From: a virus
DNA length: 42,326 nt
Strand: one strand, 5' to 3'
IMG/VR virus record: IMGVR_UViG_3300042992_002630
Coordinates: 1 to 42,326 of that record
In this document: positions 4,040 through 38,757 of the stretch, piece by piece
How positions within the stretch are numbered: position 1 is the stretch's first letter
Layout: every line of letters begins with the position of its first letter
The notes under the pieces: model-generated
What the model was told of the DNA's origin: nothing
The model's database searches: none
What the model saw: the letters and a program-made list of their open reading frames with translations, nothing else
Made by a program: the position numbers and the translations under genes

Positions 4040-5530
4040 TTAGGTCGAACTCAGGTTCTGAATTAAGTGAAACTTCTCCAACAAATCTTTTCTATCTTTG
4101 ATAGTTAGCGCGATCGCTTGACTCATCTTTTCCACCTTTTCGCCACTCAATCCCAAATCTTCACGGATAAAACTATCTAAAGATTTATCAGTTGATTCTA
4201 ACTTCTTAATCAGAATTGTTGATTGAGATTTAGTAACTTTTAGCGGGTCAACGAGGCTTCTTTTATCCCGATTATAACCTGAGAAATTATGCAATTCAGG
4301 CATCGGAAACCACTGGTTAAAGCCACCATGAAATATTGCTCTCCCGACGGGTGACTGCTGACATAATTCCATCATTTTATCAGAGCTTATTTTCCTGTCT
4401 CCAGGAATGATTTGCGCTCTTAATATGTTTTCCGAAGATGGTAATTGAGTGTCAGAAATTATCACATAAGGAGTAAAAATTGACCTTGAACCTCCATCAA
4501 ATCCAGTCCCCGAATTATGCCCATTGGAAGAAACACCCCAGATTTTGATTCCTCTAGAGTCGCCTGAACTACTGTACCCAACCATCTTGGAAACCAGCAA
4601 ACTTAATGCCCCTCTGACATTTTTTAAAGCTGTGTTAGTACCAGCTAACTCATTAAAAACTAACAATTTAATCCCAGTTCCAGCATCAAATTCGTCGTAA
4701 GTTTTAAGGCATTTCTGAATCCACGACCAAACAAATTCTGGGGAGCATTTACAGATATTCAACCGGAATAAATAATCAACCCTGCCGTCGAAATAGCCAG
4801 TCTCTTTGGGGTCATCCTTGGGGTCTATAAAAAATACCATACAATTAGGGTGGATCTTCTTTACCCAGTCCAAGGCATTGCTGACAAAATAATCTTTACC
4901 GACTCCAGGGACCCCAATGATGAGGGAGTTTTTCAAATCCTCAGCCATCTTTTTAGCTAAGTCCACAGGCTCTTTATCAAAGGTGACAATATTAGTTTTG
5001 GTAATTGGTAATTGGTGATTGTTAATTGGTAATTGGTGATTGTCAGTTGTCGGTTGTCGGTTGTCGGTTGTCGGTTGTTCCCTGTTTCCTGTTCCCTGGT
5101 TTCTGGTTTGCAACCTGCGGACAGAGGGTGAGAATTGCCTAGCCGTTTCAACAACATCTAGAGCGTCACGGCCAACAGGGTAGCCGTTTTCTCTAGCCCA
5201 AACTATCTGCTTTATCACTTCTTCGTCTCCCACCTGGTTGCGAAATTGGCGTAACTTATCCCCTTTTAAAACATGGGCAATGCAGCCATATTGATTAATG
5301 GCCACCTCATTACGATTGATGTCTTGGGTTTTTTTCCAGGCCACCTGCATAGACCAGGCTGCGACCAGTAGACCAGTGGGAGGGAAACCGGTTGCGGATG
5401 CCGCAAACAACCCGCCAATTATGCCGCCGATAATGATGTACTGGGAGTTATCATTTTCAATGGCTTCGGCTGCGACAGATTGCCATTCCTGGGCAGATAA
5501 TTGGTTTTGCTTGGGGTTGAATGCGGTCAT
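4040..5530 (-). CDS. Membrane-anchored P-loop ATPase (FtsK/VirD4-like in layout)
   Basis: A 496-residue protein and the last gene of the leftward operon. Residues 31-65 hold one or two hydrophobic membrane segments. A low-complexity linker (about 143-178) is followed by an ATPase domain with Walker A GVPGVGKD (206-213) and Walker B-like LLVFNE (289-294). N-terminal membrane anchors followed by a cytosolic P-loop domain match the plan of DNA-pumping FtsK/HerA or coupling proteins, but I cannot confirm the family. The linker is encoded by heptamer-type repeats (4997-5104). Its role may be DNA movement or membrane-linked assembly, together with the small membrane proteins upstream. Confidence 0.75.
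   Translation of the reverse strand: MTAFNPKQNQLSAQEWQSVAAEAIENDNSQYIIIGGIIGGLFAASATGFPPTGLLVAAWSMQVAWKKTQDINRNEVAINQYGCIAHVLKGDKLRQFRNQVGDEEVIKQIVWARENGYPVGRDALDVVETARQFSPSVRRLQTRNQGTGNREQPTTDNRQPTTDNHQLPINNHQLPITKTNIVTFDKEPVDLAKKMAEDLKNSLIIGVPGVGKDYFVSNALDWVKKIHPNCMVFFIDPKDDPKETGYFDGRVDYLFRLNICKCSPEFVWSWIQKCLKTYDEFDAGTGIKLLVFNELAGTNTALKNVRGALSLLVSKMVGYSSSGDSRGIKIWGVSSNGHNSGTGFDGGSRSIFTPYVIISDTQLPSSENILRAQIIPGDRKISSDKMMELCQQSPVGRAIFHGGFNQWFPMPELHNFSGYNRDKRSLVDPLKVTKSQSTILIKKLESTDKSLDSFIREDLGLSGEKVEKMSQAIALTIKDRKDLLEKFHLIQNLSST
4997..5104. repeat. In-frame short tandem repeats inside the ATPase gene
   Basis: Tandem 7-base units (TTGTCGG/TTGTCAG, then TAATTGG/TGATTGT types) and CCCTGTTTCCTGTTCCCTGG-like units. 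They resemble the short tandemly repeated repetitive (STRR) sequences of heterocystous cyanobacteria. Here they stay open for translation and encode a Q/P/T/N-rich linker with repeats such as QPTTDNR and NNHQLPI. Confidence 0.8.
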
Positions 5531-5541
5531 TTTCTAATCCT

Positions 5542-5730
5542 TTAATTTGTTTTTCTGACAATAAAAGCTTCAAAAGCCCTTGCTACAACTCTTTTTCCCC
5601 TTTCAGTCCGCGGACTTCCTAGGTCATCTTGATTCAAGACTACAGCCGCATTTCTTGCTAAATTCTCTGGTAGTCCTTCAGCGGAAAGTGTCTCGGCATA
5701 GATTCTAGTTCTTGATTTTTCGATTTTCAT
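5542..5730 (-). CDS. Small hypothetical protein (62 aa)
   Basis: Starts at MKIEKSRTR, preceded by GGAGAAAAAC; an upstream in-frame ATG at 5760 has no such signal. It overlaps the end of the previous gene by 26 bases, so translation is probably coupled. Contains SAEGLPENLARNAAVVLNQD, a helical, mildly charged protein. No family recognised. It lies between the HNH-like membrane protein and the P-loop ATPase. Confidence 0.6.
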   Translation of the reverse strand: MKIEKSRTRIYAETLSAEGLPENLARNAAVVLNQDDLGSPRTERGKRVVARAFEAFIVRKTN

Positions 5731-6040
5731 GTTTTTCTCCAAAAAATAACCAAAACACAACCCAAAAAACCATCAACATCCTAAGGACGAAATTAATCCA
5801 AGGTCTAAGCGGAGACTTCCAAAATATTCGCCAATGAATAATAGAATGGGCGGTTTTTGAAAGTGGTACAATATCCCTAACTGGCATCTCCCTTTCCAGA
5901 TTTTGATAAGTTAAATGATGAGCGTGATTGCTCTTTAACCAAGGGAATAAAATACAGTGATTAGATGTCATTCGCTGAACGTGCTTTGACTTCTTTTTCC
6001 ACTCAGGGGACATGATGTAAACCAGGTATTTATTGGCCAT
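5705..6040 (-). CDS. HNH-like motif protein with C-terminal membrane segment
   Basis: 111 residues. The central part NHAHHLTYQNLEREMPVRD followed by VPLSKTAHSIIH closely follows the HNH-nuclease pattern (HHLTYxxLGxE...DLxPLCxxCHxxIH), but the zinc cysteines are mostly replaced: only one Cys remains before the motif and CxxC has become SKTA. The C-terminus (about residues 83-103) is a hydrophobic membrane helix. A degenerate HNH fold tethered to the membrane would be unusual. It could equally be a decayed homing-type nuclease now used structurally. Overlaps both neighbours in the operon. Confidence 0.6.
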   Translation of the reverse strand: MANKYLVYIMSPEWKKKSKHVQRMTSNHCILFPWLKSNHAHHLTYQNLEREMPVRDIVPLSKTAHSIIHWRIFWKSPLRPWINFVLRMLMVFWVVFWLFFGEKHENRKIKN

Positions 6041-6704
6041 TGCGAGTATGAGCTATCCGCATAAAATACATGGTTTCGCTGAACCAAAACAACAAATTAA
6101 TGATTATTTCAATAGCAAACAAAGTAATCATTAAAAGGACAATGTTACCCCAGTCCAACCGTGTCCAGTCACCACTAACCAAGATAAACATCAACTGTCC
6201 AAATCCGCCTTTACAGGGAGGATAAACCACCGTGCAAATTAAGAAATCAATAGCATAAGTGAATAGTGCCAAGTTTCGGGCACTATTCATGGTCAGCGTT
6301 GGAAACCTGTTATACCAAGTTTTCAAAGCTGCTAATGCCGGATCATCTTTAGCATCAACCTTAAACTTTTCAGCCCCTTGGTTTTCGTTGATGATCACTT
6401 TCATAAATGCCCTATCCCTCTTCAGGAGAATTGGGAAAACTTCAATAGTTTGAATAATTCCCCACAGAATTAAACCGATCAGCCAGTGCATTGCTGAACC
6501 GAGTAATGCAGCAAATCCATTAATAATGGGAATCATTGCAATTATCTGAACTAGCGATTCATCTTTAGTTGAATTTCTGATTATCAATCGAACAGCTTGG
6601 GCGTAAGGATTGATATTCAGAAAAGCAAACCAGATACTAGCGAAGACACATAGCCAATAAAGAACTTTAACAACCTTATTGGCCTGAAACCTTTTATCTT
6701 GCAT
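6030..6704 (-). CDS. Multi-pass membrane protein
   Basis: 224 residues with four or five hydrophobic helices: near residues 12-30, 50-95 (two, with the Gly/Ala-rich INGFAALLGSAMHWLIGLILW), 145-163 and 188-212. No catalytic motif recognised. It sits in the middle of the leftward operon, five bases after the coiled-coil gene and overlapping the HNH-like gene. With the 170-residue anchored protein and the P-loop ATPase it may form a membrane complex. This is inference from the operon. Confidence 0.7.
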   Translation of the reverse strand: MQDKRFQANKVVKVLYWLCVFASIWFAFLNINPYAQAVRLIIRNSTKDESLVQIIAMIPIINGFAALLGSAMHWLIGLILWGIIQTIEVFPILLKRDRAFMKVIINENQGAEKFKVDAKDDPALAALKTWYNRFPTLTMNSARNLALFTYAIDFLICTVVYPPCKGGFGQLMFILVSGDWTRLDWGNIVLLMITLFAIEIIINLLFWFSETMYFMRIAHTRNGQ

Positions 6705-6709
6705 TCATT

Positions 6710-6931
6710 TTAAACCTCAAACATTTCTCCACTAGAATCAACCTTGAACCGTCTTACGACTTTTCCCTGTTTAAACCGAAGGATACAAGGTTCATTATCT
6801 TTTAATTCATTCTTGAGTTTAGTTTGAAGCTCCTTCCGTTCGTTTTTCAAGCGATTCAATTGCTGTTCTAGAGCGGCAATTTCAGACGATTTTTTTTTGA
6901 ATTCTATAAACAGAGTTTGTATCTTATTCAT
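6710..6931 (-). CDS. Small coiled-coil protein
   Basis: 73 residues. Residues 8-48 form an amphipathic, Lys/Glu-rich coiled coil (EFKKKSSEIAALEQQLNRLK), followed by a short beta-rich tail. The start overlaps the previous stop by four bases (ATGA), showing translational coupling. Possibly an oligomerisation partner for the neighbouring membrane proteins. No family recognised. Confidence 0.65.
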   Translation of the reverse strand: MNKIQTLFIEFKKKSSEIAALEQQLNRLKNERKELQTKLKNELKDNEPCILRFKQGKVVRRFKVDSSGEMFEV

Positions 6932-7440
6932 GTCCTTGGCAGTGAAAAACGTTTATTAGCCCGTTTTTTAGCAGCATTAATTAATGTTTCATTGCCAGTA
7001 AAAGCCATTTCTCCTACTACTGGAGTTTTGTCTATTTCGACAATCACCCCAGTGTTTCCAAATCCGTCACATACTACAGCACCAGCCGATAAAGGTCGTT
7101 TCCTGGCTGCATCCATGACTGGTTTCCCTTCCTCCAATGCAGTCAAGCTGTCGGGAGAATTAGACGCAACCACCATGATGCAACCCGATTTATATCTGCT
7201 ATCAGCAATCTCCCCTTGTGACTCAACAAATTGTTGAGTCGCAAATAACCGCATCTGCCTAGCGCTGTTGTTTTGTGTGAGTTTTTGCACCTCCCCCATT
7301 GCCGTCATATTGGACTTGATGTTGGGGGATGCGATCACTAAGCACACGCAGAACGCAAAGAAATAAACAGCATTTGCCGGGTTACGTTCTAGCCACTTCA
7401 TAAACCTGCTGCTTTCAATCCGCTGGAGGGTTTCTTGCAA
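6928..7440 (-). CDS. Single-pass membrane protein of unknown function
   Basis: 170 residues: a cytosolic N-terminus, one membrane helix at about residues 24-42 (AVYFFAFCVCLVIASPN), then a 120-residue predicted external or cytosolic domain with a Gly/Val-rich beta region (SAGAVVCDGFGNTGVIVEID). Overlaps the upstream gene by 43 bases. No known domain recognised. Part of the leftward membrane operon. Confidence 0.65.
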   Translation of the reverse strand: MQETLQRIESSRFMKWLERNPANAVYFFAFCVCLVIASPNIKSNMTAMGEVQKLTQNNSARQMRLFATQQFVESQGEIADSRYKSGCIMVVASNSPDSLTALEEGKPVMDAARKRPLSAGAVVCDGFGNTGVIVEIDKTPVVGEMAFTGNETLINAAKKRANKRFSLPRT

Positions 7441-8084
7441 CGATTCAGTAGCGATGCAGCCAGCTTCTGTACATCCTTGGTCGAAGTAACTTGGATAGTT
7501 GTTGGCTTTTTTTTGCCTTCTACCTCGGTAAAGAAAGCTTCGACATCAAATGTCGAATCAGCCGCCAATGTTTGCTGACGCTGCACCACTTGTTCTTGAG
7601 AAGTCCCGCCAAAGTCCTGAATGATCTTGTCTAGATTATCTGGGTCGCTAAGGATGGTGGCAATGGTAGCGATTTTCTGGGCATTCCTGTCTGTCAGTCC
7701 CATCAGAGATTGACTTTCAAGATCAGCCGTTACCTTCTCCATAACCTGTTGCTTTAGCTGATGCTTGAAAACGGCCTCAGCCATTCCCTCGCTTACGATT
7801 AATTCAACAACATTATTAAGGGTATTGGCATCAAGGTCTAATTCAATTGCTCTGTTTTGAGCTAATTCAATCGCTAAATTTTGAGCATCTCTAACATTGC
7901 CGCCTGGCAACTTCCTAGCGGCTTCTTGAGAAATATTAAAAGCCGCTTCCAAACCTTGAACAACTGCATTGGGGTATAGTCCATCTTGATCAGGTGAAGC
8001 TTGAATTTTGTTCAATGCTTCTATTACTTGAACCTCTGTATATTGTCCTTCAAAGTATTCAATCAATTCGGGTAAGGTGAACAT
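7398..8084 (-). CDS. Hypothetical helical protein (228 aa)
   Basis: Mostly helical, acidic and Gln-rich (for example QNLAIELAQNRAIELDLDAN), with a basic C-terminal end. No membrane segment and no motif I recognise. It overlaps the upstream gene by 22 bases and the downstream gene by 43, so it is an integral member of the operon. Confidence 0.65.
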   Translation of the reverse strand: MFTLPELIEYFEGQYTEVQVIEALNKIQASPDQDGLYPNAVVQGLEAAFNISQEAARKLPGGNVRDAQNLAIELAQNRAIELDLDANTLNNVVELIVSEGMAEAVFKHQLKQQVMEKVTADLESQSLMGLTDRNAQKIATIATILSDPDNLDKIIQDFGGTSQEQVVQRQQTLAADSTFDVEAFFTEVEGKKKPTTIQVTSTKDVQKLAASLLNRCKKPSSGLKAAGL

Positions 8085-8500
8085 AGATTATCCTCAATTA
8101 TTTTTTTTGTAAATCGTTCTTGTTCGTTCAGATAAGCTTCACGGGTGAAGTTTTCAAATGAAGATTTTATAGTTTCTTCTACTATCCAAACCTTGCGAGT
8201 ACCGTTATTTAATAACCCAAAATACTCGCCGATTTTTCCGATTACCCAAACTTGGTAGGGTACAATCGGGATTTGATGATCAGGGATGTCTCTTTGCTTT
8301 GCTAAATTCCTGACTTGAATAAATGTTAATTTATACTCTGGAATCTGCAAAGCCACTCGTTCCCATCTGTTCCAAGTCCGGCAGCACACCCCTATAATTC
8401 GCTGCCCCTGAGATTGAGACATCGGAAAACCAAGGGGATTGGGGGTTAACTCTTTTTGTGAATGTGGTTTAAAAAGTTCATTTCTCCACGACTTAATCAT
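8063..8500 (-). CDS. Hypothetical protein with possible DNA-binding N-terminus
   Basis: 145 residues. Residues 25-60 (MSQSQGQRIIGVCCRTWNRW) could form a helix-turn-helix of the kind seen in small phage proteins, followed by VPYQVWVIGKIGEYFGLLNN. Its start overlaps the previous stop codon by four bases. No firm family. Confidence 0.6.
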   Translation of the reverse strand: MIKSWRNELFKPHSQKELTPNPLGFPMSQSQGQRIIGVCCRTWNRWERVALQIPEYKLTFIQVRNLAKQRDIPDHQIPIVPYQVWVIGKIGEYFGLLNNGTRKVWIVEETIKSSFENFTREAYLNEQERFTKKIIEDNLCSPYPN

Positions 8501-8703
8501 CGGGTAGTCAGTAGTACCTTTTTAACAGTCACCGGACTGCCATTATCCGTGTCATCAACCCTGTCATGCTGTCTATCAGCAGACAATCCGTTAACAGTTA
8601 ACGGATTGTCTGCTGATATGGTTGGAGCGGAAAAAATCCTACCAGAGCCGCGATGAAAGCTAAGGCTTTGGAGTTGTTGACGGCTGTAAACTGGGTATGA
8701 CAT
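8497..8703 (-). CDS. Small protein encoded across a 45-bp palindrome
   Basis: 68 residues, first gene of the leftward operon. ATG at 8703 follows AAAGGTC at good spacing, and the stop overlaps the next start (ATGA). The middle of the protein (SADNPLTVNGLSAD) is encoded by the perfect palindrome 8574-8618. Upstream (about 90 bases) lies the TTGACA/TACAGT promoter. No family recognised. Confidence 0.6.
   Translation of the reverse strand: MSYPVYSRQQLQSLSFHRGSGRIFSAPTISADNPLTVNGLSADRQHDRVDDTDNGSPVTVKKVLLTTR
8574..8618. repeat. Perfect 45-bp palindrome within a coding region
   Basis: Arms 8574-8595 and 8597-8618 (22 bp each) are exact reverse complements around a single A at 8596. The centre reads CCGTTAACAGTTAACGG. 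It remains in frame in the 68-residue gene. The arm end TTGTCTGCTG recurs in the ERF gene repeats at 36851-36881. Confidence 0.9.
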
Positions 8704-8791
8704 GATAGTTATGACCTTTTCTTTCGTGGATTTGGTTCAGAGTCGGTAGCTAAACTTTGGACGGTGTGGCTATCGGCTTTGCTATTTCTCT

Positions 8792-8820
8792 ACTGTACAG
8801 CATCACTAGAAAAATGTCAA
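8792..8820 (-). promoter_or_regulatory. Promoter of the leftward membrane operon
   Basis: On the minus strand TTGACA (8820-8815), 17 bases, TACAGT (8797-8792): close to sigma-70 consensus. The -35 box overlaps the stop codon of the repressor gene 8817-9128. The sequence TTTCTAGTGA occurs twice, once just before the -35 box and once in the spacer, and may be the repressor's operator. Confidence 0.7.
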
Positions 8821-9128
8821 GTGTCACTAGAAATTATTTTTGGAGAGTCGAATAACTCCTGTACATCCCTGCCCAGCACCTTACAAATATGGCGTAACAG
8901 CTTAAAAGAGACGTTATGAGGTGCTTTAGGAAGATGAGGATATTCCATAAGCTGAATATACTGCTGTGAAACCTTGCCCCCGCACTGTACCACCATTTCC
9001 GCCAATTTTCGCCGCGATAACCTACCACGCATGGCTTTGAGCTTTTCGGCATGACTGCTTTGCCATACCACTGTATTCACCAAATCTAAATCAATCATAA
9101 TAAATTCTTTACTAGCTTGACTTGACAT
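8817..9128 (-). CDS. XRE-family HTH repressor
   Basis: 103 residues with a helix-turn-helix domain: LSRRKLAEMVVQCGGKVSQQ then YIQLMEYPHLP, followed by LLRHICKVLGRDVQELFDSP, the usual end of a Cro/CI-type domain. Start at 9128 (MSSQASKEF); an internal ATG at 9098 is an alternative and neither has a strong ribosome binding site. It lies between a leftward promoter at its own 3' end and the divergent AAA+ gene, so it probably controls the leftward operon and perhaps itself. Confidence 0.8.
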   Translation of the reverse strand: MSSQASKEFIMIDLDLVNTVVWQSSHAEKLKAMRGRLSRRKLAEMVVQCGGKVSQQYIQLMEYPHLPKAPHNVSFKLLRHICKVLGRDVQELFDSPKIISSDT

Positions 9129-16046: not shown

Positions 16047-17118
16047 GGATCGCAGAGACTTTGCAATTGTCGTTCCCTCATATCTTGATGATTACGGATT
16101 AAGCCCTTACGAGTACAGGCTTTACTCTCACATAGTCAGACGCGCCGGGAAAAACGGGTGTTTTGAATCTATTGGGAATATTGCCAAACATTGCTTGATG
16201 AACGAAAAGACGGTCAGGCAGTCACTAAAGGTTTTACTGGGCGCGGGGATGATTGCAGTAGTTGAATCTAAAAAAGGTAAATCGGTAGTTTATGAAGTAA
16301 CCCCGCATGAGGACTGGGTGACACCAGAAGAATTGCCAAACATACGGAATAAGCGCACCCCTACCAAATCAGGTACTACTACCCCTACCAAATCAGGTAC
16401 TACTACCCCTACCAAATCAGGTACTACTACCCCTGCCAAATCAGGTACTACTACCCCTACCAAATCAGGTACTACACCCCTACCAAATTTGGCAGACGAA
16501 GTATTTCCCTCTAAGGAAATCCCTTTCAAGGAAATCCCATTAAGTGAGAGAGAAGAACCCCCTACCCCCGAAGTTGAGGTTTTAACTCCAAAACCAATAA
16601 ACCCAGAAATCCAAGGAAGTGCCTTAGACCAAATCGGTTTCCCTGACCAATCAAAACCAGAATCTTTGCAACAAACCGAAAATCTTCCGTTAGGACAAAA
16701 TTCCCCCGCGCCGCTTGCAAAAGCTGAAACAACAGCAGATAGAGTTAGACGCACTTGGCAAGAAACCGGAATGTTGCCCAGTATCCCGATGGAATTAGAG
16801 GCATGGGTACAAATAGACCTTGGGAGTGAGATCGTGGCTTCCTACCGCAAATCTGGCAGGGTTATGACGATAAAGCAAGGGGATATCCAACCCACTTTTG
16901 CTTCTTACGTGGCCAGCCAGTGGAAAGGGAAGGACATTGACTATGGCTACAGCTACATCAGAAGCCTAGAAAAAGACCCGACTAAGTGGGAGACGTTGGC
17001 TGCCTTGGTAATCAAATGGCAAGCGTCTAAGTCAACCAATAATCACAACCTCAACATTACCCAAGAGGTTGAAAGAGCATCAAAACCAGTAGTTGATTTT
17101 GAAGGAATAAGACTATGA
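16033..17118 (+). CDS. Phage replication initiator / replisome organiser
   Basis: 361 residues, GTG start. Residues 20-95 form a winged helix (LSPYEYRLYSHIVRRAGKNG, then SIGNIAKHCLMNEKTVRQSL), as in DnaD-N/replisome-organiser proteins. Residues 109-150 are repeats of PTKSGTT encoded by 24-bp tandem repeats. A proline-rich linker precedes a C-terminal helical domain (240-335, TWQETGMLPSIPMELEAWVQ). Similar domain order and in-gene repeats occur in lambda O and in replisome organisers of Gram-positive phages, where the repeats are the origin. A helicase-loader-like gene follows (ATGA overlap), completing an initiator-loader pair. Confidence 0.75.
   Translation: MNQIKDRRDFAIVVPSYLDDYGLSPYEYRLYSHIVRRAGKNGCFESIGNIAKHCLMNEKTVRQSLKVLLGAGMIAVVESKKGKSVVYEVTPHEDWVTPEELPNIRNKRTPTKSGTTTPTKSGTTTPTKSGTTTPAKSGTTTPTKSGTTPLPNLADEVFPSKEIPFKEIPLSEREEPPTPEVEVLTPKPINPEIQGSALDQIGFPDQSKPESLQQTENLPLGQNSPAPLAKAETTADRVRRTWQETGMLPSIPMELEAWVQIDLGSEIVASYRKSGRVMTIKQGDIQPTFASYVASQWKGKDIDYGYSYIRSLEKDPTKWETLAALVIKWQASKSTNNHNLNITQEVERASKPVVDFEGIRL
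16357..16490. repeat. Iteron-like 24-bp tandem repeats: candidate replication origin
   Basis: Copies at 16357-16380, 16381-16404, 16405-16428, 16429-16452 (one mismatch), 16453-16475 (lacking one base) and a partial copy from 16476. The unit contains CCTACCAAATCAGGTACTAC. The last copy keeps the DNA sequence but is read in a different codon phase after the single-base loss, which argues that the DNA itself, not only the peptide, matters. Position inside an initiator gene parallels lambda ori within gene O. Confidence 0.7.
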
Positions 17119-25469: not shown

Positions 25470-25799
25470 ATGACGGTATTAGCAGAAAGTGATGCAGTTC
25501 ACTACGAGTTACTGACAGATGAGAGCGAGATTATTGGCAGCGTGTTTGCTGTTGACCAGTGCGAGTATATCGAGATAGTTGATTTATCCGTTGGACAAGA
25601 ATTTCAAGGTCAAGGTTATGGGCGATCGCTCATGCAGGTAATTCTTGACAATCACCCAGACACCATACTTTGTTTACGATGCAGCGCGTTCGACAATGGA
25701 TTGAGTCAGGAAAACTTAGCGGAATGGTATAAACGGCTGGGATTTGTAGATGGTACGCCATTTCATCAAGGTGATGGGTGGATGCACAGACCTGTTTAG
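25470..25799 (+). CDS. GNAT-family N-acetyltransferase
   Basis: 109 residues starting MTVLAESDAVHYELL. Acetyl-CoA loop QEFQGQGYGRSLMQVIL and the C-terminal LAEWYKRLGFVDGTPF are diagnostic. Substrate unknown. Its last 170 bases overlap, in antisense, the end of the PAPS-reductase-like frame. Contains a HIP1 site at 25622. Confidence 0.85.
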   Translation: MTVLAESDAVHYELLTDESEIIGSVFAVDQCEYIEIVDLSVGQEFQGQGYGRSLMQVILDNHPDTILCLRCSAFDNGLSQENLAEWYKRLGFVDGTPFHQGDGWMHRPV

Positions 25800-26682
25800 C
25801 CGTCAGCCTGGCGCTAACTTCTGGGAACAAGTCACACAATTCTTTGAGTTGAACGGGTGCGTAACGCGCTAACCACTTATAATAAGTTCCACACAGAATT
25901 TCTGGGCTACAATACCAAAGCGTCCGGGGAAATGGCTTGCCTTTTTTCTGCGGTATTTGGTGCATTGAGTAAATAGGTGAGATTGGTGCGTCCTCTTCCA
26001 CTAGCAACGCCCAAACATCAATATCAAGCCAATCACCTATCGGGAGTCCACGCACATAGGGTAAATAGTCTTTTTTGTCCTGATCACGGAATTGAATTAG
26101 TCCTTCTCGACTAATTTCAAACTGGCGTTCCATGCCTTCCGCGCCGCGATTTCCCCACATACACATTACATTGGGGTTTCCATCACCATAATTATGCTGA
26201 AATTGATAGATGGCTTCGTAGGAAATGCTATCCCTCATTTCTCCCCAATCCCAAAAATTCAATGGTTGTCCATCTTTAGTTTTTAATCCGTAAGAATTAC
26301 CCCAATCTAAATATTTTTTAATAATTAATGGAAACGGGTCATCAGTTAAATACTCCTCATAATAAAACCCGTTACCAAATGAATTGATATAATCCTCCCA
26401 CTCTGGCAAAACATCATAGTGGTGCGGAAGTTCCGCACCGCAATCAATAATTAAATTACAATAATCAACCTCTGCTAATTCCAAAATTATTGCAGTTGCC
26501 ATTGAGTCTTTACCGTACCCAAACCACAATCCTGGTATGACATCCTGATTAATTTTAGGATCATCATACCAAGTCCGCACACGCTCAATGGTTTTGTTCT
26601 TGAGTGCCTGAAATTCATCAGTTTTCGCCCGTTTCGCTGCTTCTATATATTTCTTCTGCGGCAGTGCTTTCGATATTTCCAT
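25630..26682 (-). CDS. PAPS reductase-like PP-loop protein
   Basis: 350 residues. The PP-loop (GLWFGYGKDSMATAIILELA, residues 51-70) and GAEGMERQFEISREGLIQFR with ADPW-type DWLDIDVWALLVEE match phage phosphoadenosine phosphosulfate reductase-like (IbrA-like) ATP pyrophosphatases. The last 56 residues are antisense to the GNAT gene and look non-native, so the original stop was probably lost. Co-oriented with a ParB-like gene, as in IbrA/IbrB pairs. Roles proposed for such pairs include DNA modification and regulation. Confidence 0.8.
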   Translation of the reverse strand: MEISKALPQKKYIEAAKRAKTDEFQALKNKTIERVRTWYDDPKINQDVIPGLWFGYGKDSMATAIILELAEVDYCNLIIDCGAELPHHYDVLPEWEDYINSFGNGFYYEEYLTDDPFPLIIKKYLDWGNSYGLKTKDGQPLNFWDWGEMRDSISYEAIYQFQHNYGDGNPNVMCMWGNRGAEGMERQFEISREGLIQFRDQDKKDYLPYVRGLPIGDWLDIDVWALLVEEDAPISPIYSMHQIPQKKGKPFPRTLWYCSPEILCGTYYKWLARYAPVQLKELCDLFPEVSARLTAKQVCASTHHLDEMAYHLQIPAVYTIPLSFPDSIHCRTRCIVNKVWCLGDCQELPA

Positions 26683-27310
26683 CTCCCCAAATATCCCCTT
26701 CTAAAATGTTTTCAGGCCAAGTCAGTACATCTTCTTCTGTGCGCTGCACTTCTTCTTGGGTTTCTTCGCTGTCATCTTCTTCTTGGTCGTCACTTTCTTC
26801 TTGGGCATCATGGATTAATTTCTCCAATTCTTCTAGTGGTAAATCAGCGTCTAGTTTCAATTGTTGAATACAAGCAAGTGCTAATTCTCGCGCCATTCTG
26901 TCTTGTGATTTTTGCAGAATAGCAACAATAAATGCCTTGCAAATATCTAACTGACGGCGGACATCCCCCATTTTTGATAGGCGAACCGCGCCATCCGCTA
27001 AAGCTAAAGTTCCCTGAAATGCTGCCAACATTCCGTTTAAATCAAGTCCTAAAAGCCGCAGTTTTAATTCTTCGACAAACTCAAAAGTTAGCTCCCCTTG
27101 TTCAACTAAAATTTCACACGCTTGGAGCAAAGTTTTCCCTTCTTTGGAGAATTTCCCCGCGCCTTCAATTTGTGAAAGAATCCGACCATGGGCAGCATAA
27201 AAACTCTCACGGACAATGCTCTCAAAGTCATAATCTTGGGCATCCGTGAAAGCGTCGCGCCATTTCCCAGATAATCGTTTACCGTAGAGTCCGTTATTCT
27301 TCTTTGGCAT
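26618..27310 (-). CDS. Hypothetical helical protein with acidic tail
   Basis: 230 residues: helical core (FVEELKLRLLGLDLNGMLAA), then a very acidic stretch (EESDDQEEDDSEETQEEVQR) near residues 168-195. Overlaps the next gene by 65 bases and the previous by 17. Could be a small terminase subunit or another packaging/regulatory partner, but the evidence is position only. Confidence 0.5.
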   Translation of the reverse strand: MPKKNNGLYGKRLSGKWRDAFTDAQDYDFESIVRESFYAAHGRILSQIEGAGKFSKEGKTLLQACEILVEQGELTFEFVEELKLRLLGLDLNGMLAAFQGTLALADGAVRLSKMGDVRRQLDICKAFIVAILQKSQDRMARELALACIQQLKLDADLPLEELEKLIHDAQEESDDQEEDDSEETQEEVQRTEEDVLTWPENILEGDIWGDGNIESTAAEEIYRSSETGEN

Positions 27311-27599
27311 TACGAACCAACCGGACTACTTGGGTAATTATCTTGTTGACTTCCTGCATCGCTTTTGAACGGCGACCATGCCTGATGTTGTTCTTTCCAC
27401 ATTTGGATTTATCGCGTGGTCCGGTTGACTTCTCCCAAGGCCTATGTACTAAACATCGTTGACGTGCGGCTTCTATAAACTCAGGTGATAGGTTTTTCCG
27501 CTTGTACCTTTTAGGCGGATATTTTTTAGCCCTGAATGACTCCAAAAACTTGTCAGAATCCAACGTTTTCGGCTGTGATTGCTCCGTCTGTACTGTCAT
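27294..27599 (-). CDS. Small basic protein with WEKSTGPR motif
   Basis: 101 residues. CLVHRPWEKSTGPRDKSKCG followed by KNNIRHGRRSKA is a short motif seen repeatedly in cyanobacterial and phage proteins (HRPWEKSTGPRTxxGK...NxxxHG). Basic throughout, so probably DNA-binding. Overlaps the ParB-like gene by 47 bases. Function unknown. Confidence 0.6.
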   Translation of the reverse strand: MTVQTEQSQPKTLDSDKFLESFRAKKYPPKRYKRKNLSPEFIEAARQRCLVHRPWEKSTGPRDKSKCGKNNIRHGRRSKAMQEVNKIITQVVRLVRNAKEE

Positions 27600-28524
27600 T
27601 TATTGCCACTCCTAACTCGGTGCTCATCATGTCTACTATCTTTAGAATTACCTGACTCCGATATTGCTGAACCATGCCCTCAGTTGAGATGCCAATTTTG
27701 GGTGCAAGTTGGTCAAGTTTAGAGCGAAAATTAGCTAAATCACCCTTATCTAAAAAGATAAAAAACTGTGTTTGCTCACCCTTCCCGGTGTAGTTAATTG
27801 ACTGAACTGCACCAACATCTGTCACATTTTCAGTTTCAACAATGACCTTTTCCGCAGGTGGTGGAGGTGTGTAATCGCTTCTACTGGGTGTTACGTCAAT
27901 GGTAGTGCCATCTTCACTCATTTGAGGATTTGGGTATTTCTCGTCATCAAAATCGTAACCCGTTTCTTCCTGTTCCTCTTCCGGTTCTTCTTTGCGAACT
28001 AGAAAGGCTCGCATAAAACTGTTAGCAGTTGAAGTATCCCAACCCGCTGTTTTAATCTGTCTTTTGGGCATTTGTGCCAAAATTGCGGCAATTTTACCGG
28101 GGTCATCACGTCCATCATGGCTAGTATTGTTAAGTCGAAGCAGCGCCGACTTTTGGGATAGTTCATCGAGCGTGACGGGAACGACGGGGATAGCAGTCCA
28201 ATAATTAGCACAAAACCGCTCTCGATGTTTTTCGGCTACTTTATCTCTCCCCGTCCCTTTGATCCACCGATCCCACTCTTTCAGGAAAAAATCTTCATCC
28301 TGTTGGCTTAACCAATCCGCACCCTGAACCCTGCCATGTCCTGAGATGAGGTAGCCGAAACTACCGTCTAGGTTTCGCTGAATTGTGGGGTAAATCAACC
28401 ATCCAAAATCTAGCAAGCTGTCACGAATCCAAGGCAAATCATTCTCTTCTGAATGTTCGCGGGGATTTTCAGGGTGGAATTTTGCCAATACGCTGGAGAT
28501 TGGTAATCGTAAAACTTCACTCAT
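27553..28524 (-). CDS. ParB/Srx-like domain protein
   Basis: 323 residues. The N-terminal ParB-fold has ENPREHSEENDLPWIRDSL and GYLISGHGRVQGADWLSQQD (GHGR motif). The middle is acidic and low in complexity (EEPEEEQEETGYDFDD), and the C-terminal domain (240-310) is unassigned. Starts with a four-base overlap after the sigma-like gene. Together with the PAPS-reductase-like gene downstream it recalls IbrB/IbrA pairs. Confidence 0.8.
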   Translation of the reverse strand: MSEVLRLPISSVLAKFHPENPREHSEENDLPWIRDSLLDFGWLIYPTIQRNLDGSFGYLISGHGRVQGADWLSQQDEDFFLKEWDRWIKGTGRDKVAEKHRERFCANYWTAIPVVPVTLDELSQKSALLRLNNTSHDGRDDPGKIAAILAQMPKRQIKTAGWDTSTANSFMRAFLVRKEEPEEEQEETGYDFDDEKYPNPQMSEDGTTIDVTPSRSDYTPPPPAEKVIVETENVTDVGAVQSINYTGKGEQTQFFIFLDKGDLANFRSKLDQLAPKIGISTEGMVQQYRSQVILKIVDMMSTELGVAINDSTDGAITAENVGF

Positions 28525-29639
28525 TTTTTAGCAACCTCGACGGCTTCCTGAGATTTTTGCATAGCGCTGTTTAGCAGTTTTAACGCCTCGTCTAACTCTG
28601 GTGATTCACCACAGTTCTTGATTAGGTAATCAGCGAGTGACGTAAATTTTGATGTAATCTGCCATTGTGATTGACTGGTACTCATTCGTTTTTTCGATAG
28701 ATTTATTGAATTATTGATAACATAATTTTTACTCCATAGGTAAGCGGTGCTGTGGTCAACTCCCAAATAAGTTTCACACCAATAACTAGATTTACCGTTA
28801 GCGATCGCCTCCAAAACTTTCAGCTTCACATTATTAGAATAGCCACGTCTCCCATTTGGCAATGGGTTCTCCCTGAATTGAGTCTGACAGGACTTGCACA
28901 AATAGCTTTGTTTCCCGTCACGTTTACCATTTTTAATAGTTTGATAGGATTTGCAGTTTGGACATTGAACACGCCCCGCAATAATTAACTTTAACTTTTG
29001 TAAAGACTCAGATTTAATGCGGTGTAATTCCTTCAATTTAATATTATGGATTTGGCACAACATTTTGGCGGGGATATGGGTAATATATAAATCTTTGATG
29101 ATTGTGGCGTGAAGTTCTGGCAACTTATCAAGCAGCGGGAGAATTGACTCTGATTCCTCTGCTTGCTCCGTTGTCAACTGTTCGGGTAGTTCAGGATTAT
29201 TTTGATTGCAAGCTATCGCCGCCTCTTTGGCAACTTGTAAAGAGATATTTAGTTCAATGGCCGCTTGTTCATAAGTTACGCCATGTTTTTGCGCGTGTCG
29301 CTTCAATTTTTGGTGGGTTTCTTGGAGGGGACGCGGAACTTTTACCATCCGCGCTTTATCCCTGACAAATTGCGCCATTGCACCATAAATAAACGGCACG
29401 GCGTAACTGGAAAGTTTAATTTTCTTAGTAGGGTCAAACCTCTCCACCGCTTTGATTAATCCCTCCGCCCCAATTTGTATCAGGTCTTCTCTTGGGACTG
29501 TGCAGCAAGCGGTCATTTTACCTGCTATATGACCGACTAGCCCCATGTTAGTCTCAACTATTTTGTTTCTCAGTCGGATGTCCCTGGTTTGGTGAAAATT
29601 AATTAAAAGTTGCTGATTGTCTAAGTATGCCGCGTCCAT
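28521..29639 (-). CDS. Sigma-70-type factor fused to IS1 InsA-like zinc ribbon and HTH
   Basis: 372 residues. Residues 8-100 are sigma region 2 (EDLIQIGAEGLIKAVERFDP, then SSYAVPFIYGAMAQFVRD); about 100-135 region 3 (VKVPRPLQETHQKLKRHAQK); about 168-222 a region 4-like HTH. Then a zinc ribbon with Cys226, Cys229, Cys248 and Cys251 (CPNCKSYQTIKNGKRDGKQS) and a helix-turn-helix (270-305, VKLKVLEAIANGKSSYWCET) as in IS1-family InsA proteins. No transposase DDE domain. Predicted to redirect host RNA polymerase to phage promoters, with added DNA-binding specificity from the transposon-type module. First gene of the ParB/PAPS operon. Confidence 0.8.
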   Translation of the reverse strand: MDAAYLDNQQLLINFHQTRDIRLRNKIVETNMGLVGHIAGKMTACCTVPREDLIQIGAEGLIKAVERFDPTKKIKLSSYAVPFIYGAMAQFVRDKARMVKVPRPLQETHQKLKRHAQKHGVTYEQAAIELNISLQVAKEAAIACNQNNPELPEQLTTEQAEESESILPLLDKLPELHATIIKDLYITHIPAKMLCQIHNIKLKELHRIKSESLQKLKLIIAGRVQCPNCKSYQTIKNGKRDGKQSYLCKSCQTQFRENPLPNGRRGYSNNVKLKVLEAIANGKSSYWCETYLGVDHSTAYLWSKNYVINNSINLSKKRMSTSQSQWQITSKFTSLADYLIKNCGESPELDEALKLLNSAMQKSQEAVEVAKK

Positions 29640-31605: not shown

Positions 31606-32856
31606 ATGGGCAAAGCGTTAGAGGTTTTTGAAAAAACCTGTAAAAAAGGTAAAGCTTGCGGAAATGCTTGTATTTCCGCGCTTAAAAATTGTGCATCAAA
31701 GAAAACTGGGGAATCCACCAAGGAAACCGGAAAATCTACTAAGGAAACCGGAAAATCTACTAAGGAAACCGGAAAATCTACTAAGGAAACCGGAAAATCT
31801 ACTAAGGAAACCGGAAAATCTACCAAGGAAACCGGAAAATCTACTAAGGAAACCGGAGAATCTACTAAAAAGACCAGGGGTTCTACTAAGGAAACCGGGG
31901 AATCCACCAAAAAAACTGGAGAATCCACTCAACCCACTAAAACCACACCTATATCATACAAAGTCGATTCTTCGGATCATAAGGCTTTGATGAACATAGG
32001 CAAGGATTTTTCTGATCAAACTATGGGGAAAGCACTAAAAGCATTACAAGATGCTCAAGCTGAGAAAAAGAATTTCTTTATGGACATAGAGAGGAATAAC
32101 AAGAAAACCAAACAAGGAAAATGGTTCAAAAAAGATGAAAAACACGCAGCAAAATTGGATGAGAAAATGTTACTTGCCCAGAAAGAGCTTGAAGCGGCCG
32201 CAGAGGGAACGTTACAGAAATTAAAAGCCCATCATAAAATTGATAGAGAAGATGCAGAAAAATGGGCTAATTCACTTGTTTCTGACAAATTCACGCTCAC
32301 AGGTAAAGACAGGGAAACAACTTTGACTGCTTTAGCGGATGTTTATATGATAACAGGCGGCATGGGTGCGACAGAACTAAAAAAAGTAGTAAGTACCGAT
32401 ACAAATAGAGCCTTTGCAGATCCATACACTGGAGAACTAACTTTAGAAAGTAAGGGTCTAAAGATTCTTGGCAAAGAATTATCTCCAGAGGCTGAAAGTA
32501 GCCTTACTTCTCGTCGTGAGACAGTGTTCCACGAATACGCGCATTTTTCGGAATTTGAGAATAAGCAATTGGCTGTCGCGTCAAGAAAATTCATTGAAGA
32601 TCGGGCTACGTCGTCTGAGCTTATGAAAATAAATGATATAACTGGATTCAGCGGATACAGAGATAATGAGATGGCATTCCCAGGCAACTTTATACACCCC
32701 TATGTAGGGAAGATATATGGTCCTTCGGGTACTTGGACTGAGGTTGTTTCGATGGGAGTTGAAAGCTTTAAAACTCCCTTTCAGATGGCTTCCTTTTACA
32801 GGCGAGATCCAGAGCATTTTAATTTTATCTTAGGAGCGATTTTACATGAAAATTAA
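31606..32856 (+). CDS. Putative zinc metalloprotease with Cys-rich N-terminus and heptad repeats
   Basis: 416 residues. N-terminal CKKGKACGNACISALKNC (a short Cys motif seen in other phage and cyanobacterial head/toxin proteins); residues 32-108 hold 11 tandem heptads K(E/K)TGKST; a helical middle region follows. A C-terminal zincin site HEYAH (309-313) sits in RRETVFHEYAHFSEFENKQL with candidate third ligand Glu379 (TWTEVVSMGVE). Could be a prohead protease, a packaged effector or a secreted toxin; the small overlapping gene after it may be a partner. Confidence 0.65.
   Translation: MGKALEVFEKTCKKGKACGNACISALKNCASKKTGESTKETGKSTKETGKSTKETGKSTKETGKSTKETGKSTKETGKSTKETGESTKKTRGSTKETGESTKKTGESTQPTKTTPISYKVDSSDHKALMNIGKDFSDQTMGKALKALQDAQAEKKNFFMDIERNNKKTKQGKWFKKDEKHAAKLDEKMLLAQKELEAAAEGTLQKLKAHHKIDREDAEKWANSLVSDKFTLTGKDRETTLTALADVYMITGGMGATELKKVVSTDTNRAFADPYTGELTLESKGLKILGKELSPEAESSLTSRRETVFHEYAHFSEFENKQLAVASRKFIEDRATSSELMKINDITGFSGYRDNEMAFPGNFIHPYVGKIYGPSGTWTEVVSMGVESFKTPFQMASFYRRDPEHFNFILGAILHEN
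31699..31929. repeat. Eleven 21-bp tandem repeats
   Basis: Units such as AAGGAAACCGGAAAATCTAC repeated in frame, encoding KETGKST heptads; six central copies are nearly identical, the outer ones diverged. Confidence 0.9.
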
Positions 32857-38402: not shown

Positions 38403-38435
38403 CTACTATAGCTGGTAACTATAGACTTGTCAAGA
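38403..38435 (-). promoter_or_regulatory. Promoter and operator of the recombination operon
   Basis: Minus strand TTGACA, 17 bases, TATAGT. The spacer and -10 region contain CTATAGTTACCAGCTATAG, a palindrome that recurs in part near the adjacent repressor gene (AACTATAG sites at about 38699-38714 and 38749-38756). Confidence 0.65.
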
Positions 38436-38714
38436 GATTTTCCAAAAAAAATTTGAGACCTTGATCTGTAAGGCTTCGCAGATTTTAGCGAAGGTGTCAG
38501 CCCCTACTGTTACCTGTTTTCGCTTCAATAACCTGGGGTTTTCGATTTGCTGGATATAACCCTCGGCCACTCCAGCCATTTGTGCCAGCTTGGCGCGAGA
38601 TAACCCTGCGGATTCCCTGTGTTGCCGTAACTTGGCGGCGTAATCTTGCCCCCAATTAAAAGATGCAATAGGCGTAATGTCCATCTCAATGCTTACCTTT
38701 ATTTCATAGTTCAT
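38430..38714 (-). CDS. XRE-family HTH repressor
   Basis: 94 residues starting MNYEIKVSIEMDITP; a longer upstream frame covers the promoter. HTH: RESAGLSRAKLAQMAGVAEG then YIQQIENPRLL, followed by TFAKICEALQIKVSNFF. It ends about 25 bases before the promoter of the recombination operon and its own promoter (TTGACA-17-TATTTT) overlaps ATAGTTATGAACTAT. Likely an autoregulated repressor of recombination genes. Confidence 0.8.
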   Translation of the reverse strand: MNYEIKVSIEMDITPIASFNWGQDYAAKLRQHRESAGLSRAKLAQMAGVAEGYIQQIENPRLLKRKQVTVGADTFAKICEALQIKVSNFFWKIS

Positions 38715-38757
38715 AACTATAAAAATAATTCCTTTTAGCGTCACTGTCAACTATAGC

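Follow-up and report, generated by a model that had tools for sequence, protein, structure and literature searches.

A membrane-anchored ATPase operon of plasmids and temperate phages in filamentous cyanobacteria, and its possible role in moving DNA

The operon and its genes

We describe an operon in a viral contig 42,326 bases long (IMG/VR record IMGVR_UViG_3300042992_002630, positions 1 to 42,326), hereafter called the window. Nine leftward open reading frames (ORFs), named g1 to g9, run from 8703 to 4040 on the minus strand, and most overlap by 4-26 bp or sit 5-12 bp apart. The original prediction, made from the sequence of the window, had claimed a tightly packed nine-gene operon. This arrangement is borne out, and it is more than chance, because the core genes and their order recur in many independent loci. 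We tentatively propose, with slightly less than even confidence, that the operon encodes a replicon-specific, membrane-anchored machine that moves the DNA of plasmids and temperate phages in filamentous cyanobacteria.

The operon also appears to be undescribed, as predicted. None of its proteins reaches the cut-off in Pfam, NCBIfam, PHROGs or PADLOC (the PADLOC models gave no match for the seven operon proteins scanned), and we found no description of it in the open-access literature.

Three genes form the recurring core. The last gene of the operon, g9 (4040..5530), encodes an ATPase of 496 amino acids (aa) with N-terminal membrane helices, a repeat-rich linker and a core resembling RecA/FtsK-HerA motors. 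Its P-loop reads GVPGVGKD and its Walker B motif LLVFNE, and a tandem-repeat search located heptanucleotide repeats that encode the linker (4998..5078). The multi-pass membrane protein g6 (6030..6704; 224 aa) has four predicted transmembrane helices. The third core protein, g4 (6928..7401; 157 aa), has a single transmembrane helix. Its ORF is open from a TTG at 7440, but the most likely start is the ATG at 7401, because this codon gives a 4-bp overlap with the previous stop and agrees with the start of a relative in a prophage (L014). An alignment and an AlphaFold2 model (m6cda222597b0) give g4 one transmembrane helix, a long helix and a beta domain with two invariant cysteines; the best match in a fold search was no better than E = 0.3.

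Upstream of the core lie g2 (8063..8500), a 145-aa helix-turn-helix (HTH) protein and putative DNA-recognition adaptor, and g3 (7398..8084), a 228-aa helical soluble protein. Their families occur in 35 and 34 loci, respectively. The HTH region of g2 weakly matches the Xer activation factor model NF040522 (E = 0.008, below the cut-off). Between g6 and g9, g7 (5705..6040) encodes a 111-aa HNH-like protein with a C-terminal transmembrane helix and the motif HHLTYxNLxxE...AHxxxH. Alignment indicates that the His residues of the HNH core are kept and that the zinc Cys residues are lost in the window copy (LS..AH), which places g7 outside the HNH definition of an HH...H core with two Cys pairs for zinc.

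The remaining genes are less secure. The ORF of g8 (5542..5730; about 62 aa) is open from a TTG at 5760, which would give 72 aa, and most likely starts at the ATG at 5730, because GGAGA precedes that codon; it was found only in the window and in one other viral contig (L012). The 68-aa g1 (8497..8703) and the 73-aa g5 (6710..6931), a coiled-coil ORF confined to the window, have no relatives in any locus fetched for comparison. They are therefore the least certain genes and could be spurious or of very recent origin. In the fetched loci, gene calls are mechanical ORFs, and many of these loci are contig fragments of undefined replicon type. Thus, the ATPase with N-terminal membrane helices, the multi-pass and single-pass proteins and the membrane-tethered HNH-like protein that had been predicted are all present, the tether of the last being C-terminal; the predicted coiled-coil gene is among the least certain.

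Promoter and putative control

A sigma70-type promoter (TTGACA-17-TACAGT; 8792..8820, minus strand) precedes the operon, and its -35 box shares bases with the stop codon of a gene for a 103-aa XRE-like DNA-binding protein (8817..9128, minus strand). Two operator-like repeats, TTTCTAGTGA, lie on the minus strand within the end of the XRE-like gene (8824..8833) and between the -35 and -10 boxes (8803..8812). They are the only exact copies in the 42 kb and are spaced 21 bp, or two helical turns; among the fetched loci, a single copy occurs in L008, away from the operon start. The single consensus promoter with repeated sites claimed for this position is therefore real in sequence.

The XRE assignment is based on sequence pattern and a weak Pfam match (HTH_26, E = 0.11). 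Relatives of the protein occur in four loci that also hold the ATPase (L047, L052, L063 and L074), and positions 38433-38750 of the window encode a paralogue (E = 1e-6). As to the dedicated repressor of the original prediction, a suitable gene and operator-like repeats exist, and control is suggested only by position and repeats; the protein would repress the operon via the two TTTCTAGTGA sites. The operon leader further holds, inside g1, a perfect palindrome with two 22-bp arms and a 1-bp spacer (8574..8618), which is a candidate protein-binding or cis site. Exact copies of it are absent from IMG/VR and from the fetched loci.

A module shared by phages and plasmids

The window has PHROG matches to a terminase (33387), a portal (22637), a tail protein (194), an Erf annealing protein (36560), a replication initiator (16033) and an anti-repressor (11976). 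The gene at 1435 looks like a tyrosine integrase by sequence pattern only, with no PHROG match, and a tRNA-Met lies nearby. Adjoining this gene, positions 1250-1294 resemble the 3' part of a tRNA gene, and the same sequence occurs in L012; this partial tRNA 3' end is probably the phage attachment site. Given the phage matches, the integrase-like gene and the candidate attachment site, the window is most likely a temperate tailed phage. Its host is a filamentous cyanobacterium. The operon sits between the integrase and DNA-methyltransferase genes and the XRE-like gene. In another viral contig, L013, which matches the window on both sides, other ORFs (1263-2486) replace most of the methyltransferase-integrase stretch.

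Relatives of the ATPase with 30-41% identity were found in 19 plasmids of heterocystous cyanobacteria, and two IMG/VR relatives reach 86-87%; INPHARED phages gave no match. A scan of GTDB genomes yielded 67 ATPase loci in Nostocales plus Nodosilinea and Myxacorys, all of which we take from their names to be filamentous cyanobacteria. Of 386 cyanobacterial genomes sampled evenly over the phylum, seven gave strong matches (E below 1e-40), and none of these seven was smaller than 5.5 Mb. Because the locus searches relied on patterns derived from the family, they may miss remote relatives outside cyanobacteria. Dozens of loci contain the core, with genes for the single-transmembrane protein, the multi-transmembrane protein and the membrane-anchored P-loop ATPase in this order. 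Plasmids that carry the core range in size from 13 kb to over 400 kb, and at least three further prophages have it as well. To date, we have seen it only in filamentous cyanobacteria. The neighborhood comparison thus supports the claim that these genes form a unit, because they co-occur in other genomes.

The three prophage copies (L014, L093 and L094, in genomes G001, G390 and G392) were recognized by a terminase on the same contig, at a distance of 11-20 kb, and the module is also present in viral contigs L012 and L013. The ATPase tree divides the phage copies into at least two supported clades, which are separate from each other and lie among copies from plasmids and from contigs without an assignment. 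The window g7 shares 57-69% identity with versions of plasmid type, for which the accompanying ATPases reach only 36-41%, and the window g2 resembles plasmid-type g2 (36-41%). Conversely, the prophage locus L014 has an ATPase 61% identical to that of the window and a g2 that blastp does not detect. Because the identities of g7, g2 and the ATPase disagree across loci, sequence comparison indicates that modules are exchanged between phage and plasmid copies. In plasmid A of Trichormus variabilis ATCC 29413 (L005, 3259-5524), g3 is interrupted by an IS66-type insertion (ISAva2), and this copy is therefore broken.

The ATPase

The AlphaFold2 model of g9 is confident in the core, where most blocks score above 90, and uncertain in the membrane part. 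Foldseek searches of the PDB matched Rho (2.4e-4), the FtsK motor (8.9e-4), EccC, KaiC and RadA, and searches of viral models matched A32-like packaging ATPases (2.9e-5) and FtsK-like proteins; template-modelling (TM) scores were low. On the modelled fold, the motor looks like the RecA/FtsK-HerA type. The FtsK_SpoIIIE domain (PF01580) is absent from the g9 family by Pfam scan, and FtsK is encoded by separate genes in related genomes. In nine hhalign comparisons, scores included 41.9 for VirD4, 40.9 for VirB4, 36.7 for PilB, 34.2 for FtsK, 28.9 for KaiC and 24.9-28.2 for HerA; the VirD4 match aligns the P-loop and the IDPK strand. This profile-profile ranking is suggestive only.

The P-loop of the family occurs in three variants: 79 members have GKG, 11 have GKD, one has GKR and none has GK[ST]. 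Among 88 scorable sequences, the Walker B Asp-Glu is present in all 77 GKG members, and all 11 GKD members have lost the Asp (replaced by N in eight, G in two and T in one) and kept the Glu. Detached second ATPase copies in L004, L021 and L071 form a separate clade and are also GKD, with Ser-Glu. The simplest reading of these alignments is that the metal-binding acid moved, once or twice, to the residue after the P-loop lysine. Three loci (L105, 4807-6825; L106, 5026-7071; L109, 4322-6256) keep the membrane N-terminus and the operon order and have a markedly different ATPase domain with a GNQRGGKGT-type P-loop.

The VirD4/TraG coupling proteins share with g9 the N-terminal membrane helices followed by a RecA-like ATPase and a similar second-strand motif (IDPK). 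This topology, the top hhalign score and the fact that some host plasmids are conjugative or mobilizable could mean that the operon supplies a coupling protein and pore for mobilization, as a minimal conjugation-like transfer between touching cells that feeds or replaces a type IV secretion system. We regard this as very improbable. The family has GKG or GKD in place of GK[ST]; the coupling-protein domains PF12696, PF02534 and PF10412 gave no significant match (best TrwB_AAD_bind, E = 0.11, in one relative); and the same genomes encode true VirD4-type proteins in genes of their own. These three observations rule out membership in the canonical coupling protein family. As to a relaxase on the same element, the picture is mixed: some host plasmids are mobilizable, the module also occurs on 13-24 kb plasmids without a typed relaxase, and three small plasmids are typed non-mobilizable. 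Classical conjugation is thus unsupported as the form of the transfer suggested in the original prediction.

Front ends, nucleases and specificity

Leaving aside truncated contigs, the ATPase gene is usually preceded on the same strand by a multi-transmembrane gene, of g6 type in 27 loci or of an analogous type, B6, in 44, and this gene by a single-transmembrane gene (g4 type in 28 loci, B4 type in 39). Farther upstream, two front ends alternate: about 35 loci have g2 with g3, and about 16 have a ParM-like actin (ALP_N matches of 6e-9 and 5e-12) accompanied by small genes. A further position is taken by a nuclease, either HNH-like (9 loci) or GIY-YIG of the MUG113/T5orf172 type. All HNH-like members, and most GIY-YIG members beside the operon, have a C-terminal hydrophobic helix, so that two unrelated nuclease folds carry the same membrane tether.

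The most variable component is g2. Between plasmid copies that share a genome, identity is 93-97% for the two membrane proteins, 86-95% for the ATPase, 76-88% for g3 and 51-71% for g2. The plasmid location of these copies, most of which are on draft contigs, was assigned from close match to plasmid-borne L004 and L005. Synonymous divergence (dS) between co-resident copies is 0.8-1.9 for g2, compared with about 0.2-0.7 for the machine genes. This excess indicates that g2 is replaced by exchange, not by slow alteration. Co-resident copies shared a g2 type in none of five pairs, too few for significance, and the same g2 type occurs in different genomes (L031 and L042, 95%; L036 and L064, 100%). 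Such a pattern would be expected if g2 were a DNA-recognition protein that is specific to each replicon and serves a common machine; an autoregulator that avoids cross-talk would fit too.

The operon might instead serve vertical maintenance only, with g2/g3 or the actin set holding the DNA and the membrane ATPase anchoring it at the pole or septum, without intercellular transport. The actin-like front end is consistent with this possibility and with a likeness to ParMRC partition systems, g2 types behave like incompatibility types, and plasmids of every size would need such a system. However, no actin gene exists in the window, some of the same plasmids (L008, and L009, a 39-kb plasmid of Tolypothrix sp. 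PCC 7601) have separate ParA or ParA/ParB genes, and an integrated prophage needs no partition. A membrane motor, a multi-pass protein and tethered nucleases are additions unusual in partition systems. We therefore consider maintenance alone rather unlikely, although it is the strongest of the rivals.

The tethered HNH or GIY-YIG domains, by comparison, raise the question of superinfection exclusion or defense, in which a membrane machine would stop or cut the DNA of rival phages and plasmids. This function would suit a module found on both plasmids and prophages, and one that in the window lies beside a repressor gene and a DNA methyltransferase; the GIY-YIG protein also matches PADLOC PDC-S57. 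Yet the nucleases are optional, the window HNH lacks the zinc Cys, and the variation between co-resident copies lies in the cytoplasmic HTH protein and not in the membrane proteins, which are exposed. The core proteins of the window have no PADLOC match (seven operon proteins scanned), which rules out a known anti-phage defense system. Exclusion or defense is, in our judgment, unlikely.

Possible function

The original prediction placed the operon outside virion structure and lysis. This placement stands, and a virion or lysis module is ruled out, because the operon proteins have no significant PHROG match apart from coiled-coil noise. Its broader claim, a membrane-bound DNA-handling machine, stands in part: maintenance of the plasmid or phage state, or DNA movement, is plausible because the motor looks RecA/FtsK-HerA-like and the module is carried by plasmids and temperate phages, whereas classical conjugation is not supported.

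Our preferred reading, a dedicated DNA-moving machine, would work as follows. The g2 protein (with g3), or the actin set, would recognize a site in the DNA of its own element. The g4 and g6 proteins would form a membrane complex with the beta domain of g4 outside the cytoplasm, a placement suggested by the N-in orientation and two conserved Cys residues of g4. The g9 ATPase would assemble as a ring at this complex and draw double-stranded DNA up to the membrane or across it, with the septum as the most likely place. It is probable that the machine moves the DNA of its own element, or positions it, at the cell membrane; movement from cell to cell along the filament is possible. As a result, the element would be inherited stably and might also reach neighboring cells of the filament, much as TraB/Spd acts in Streptomyces mycelium. 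A more specific version is decidedly unlikely: that the machine is dedicated to moving plasmid or phage double-stranded DNA through the septum to the next cell, spreading the phage genome without lysis, with an ATPase in which the residue following the P-loop lysine has taken over from Walker B as the magnesium-binding acid.

Several observations weigh against a DNA-moving machine. The g2 protein could be a mere autoregulator whose specificity diverged to avoid cross-talk, and no conserved repeat array (clt- or parC-like) occurs near g2, nor any general one near g2 or the actin genes. Whole-model TM-scores of g9 are only 0.2-0.3. The hhalign matches are short, and an AAA+ control reached 37.7 on the P-loop alone, compared with 41.9 for VirD4. 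Most operon copies lack a nuclease. Finally, the apparent restriction to filaments is hard to separate from Nostocales ancestry and from the use of pattern-based searches.

By analogy, the nearest functional parallel is the TraB/Spd system of Streptomyces, in which an FtsK-like TraB, three to six small spd genes and plasmid repressors move and stabilize plasmids across mycelial compartments, and in which palindromes lie within a small spd ORF (PMC4170104). Like the systems of pIJ101 and pSVH1, the operon combines an FtsK-like membrane motor, several small undescribed membrane genes, putative repressor control, a palindrome inside a small ORF and a multicellular filamentous host (PMC4170104). 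The likeness is an analogy without demonstrated sequence relationship: the operon ATPase lacks PF01580, and the operon family has two alternative DNA-facing front ends, tethered nucleases and carriage by tailed phages. FcmBC of Nostoc punctiforme offers another likeness, an actin derived from a plasmid partition system that forms membrane-bound filaments in filamentous cyanobacteria (PMC12645912). It is a chromosomal morphology system and is not known to include a motor operon (PMC12645912). The best reading is that the machine works like TraB/Spd or partition systems, yet lies outside every known family.

Other features of the phage genome

Five near-identical promoter-like sites, TTGACAAATATTTGTTATCCTGTTACTAT, occur in the window on both strands (21493+, 22137+, 22602+, 30591- and 31088-). 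They contain the palindrome ACAAATATTTGT and possibly form an operator/promoter set of the phage. A PAPS-reductase-like gene (25630) and a ParB-like gene (27553) in the region 25630-28524 recall DNA-modification gene sets, and positions 28521-29639 match an RNA polymerase sigma-factor-like PHROG (7.7e-36). Tandem repeats of 21/42/63 and 24 bp lie within predicted genes at 31697-31929 and 16357-16488, respectively.

Conclusions

This work delineates a gene system, so far unannotated, that is found repeatedly on plasmids and prophages of multicellular cyanobacteria and is passed from one kind of element to the other. The linked change of P-loop and Walker B in its ATPase poses a compact question for enzymology. 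Should the system prove to move DNA at the septum, cyanobacteria would have an equivalent of the plasmid spreading seen in Streptomyces, and the travel of mobile elements along filaments would become testable.

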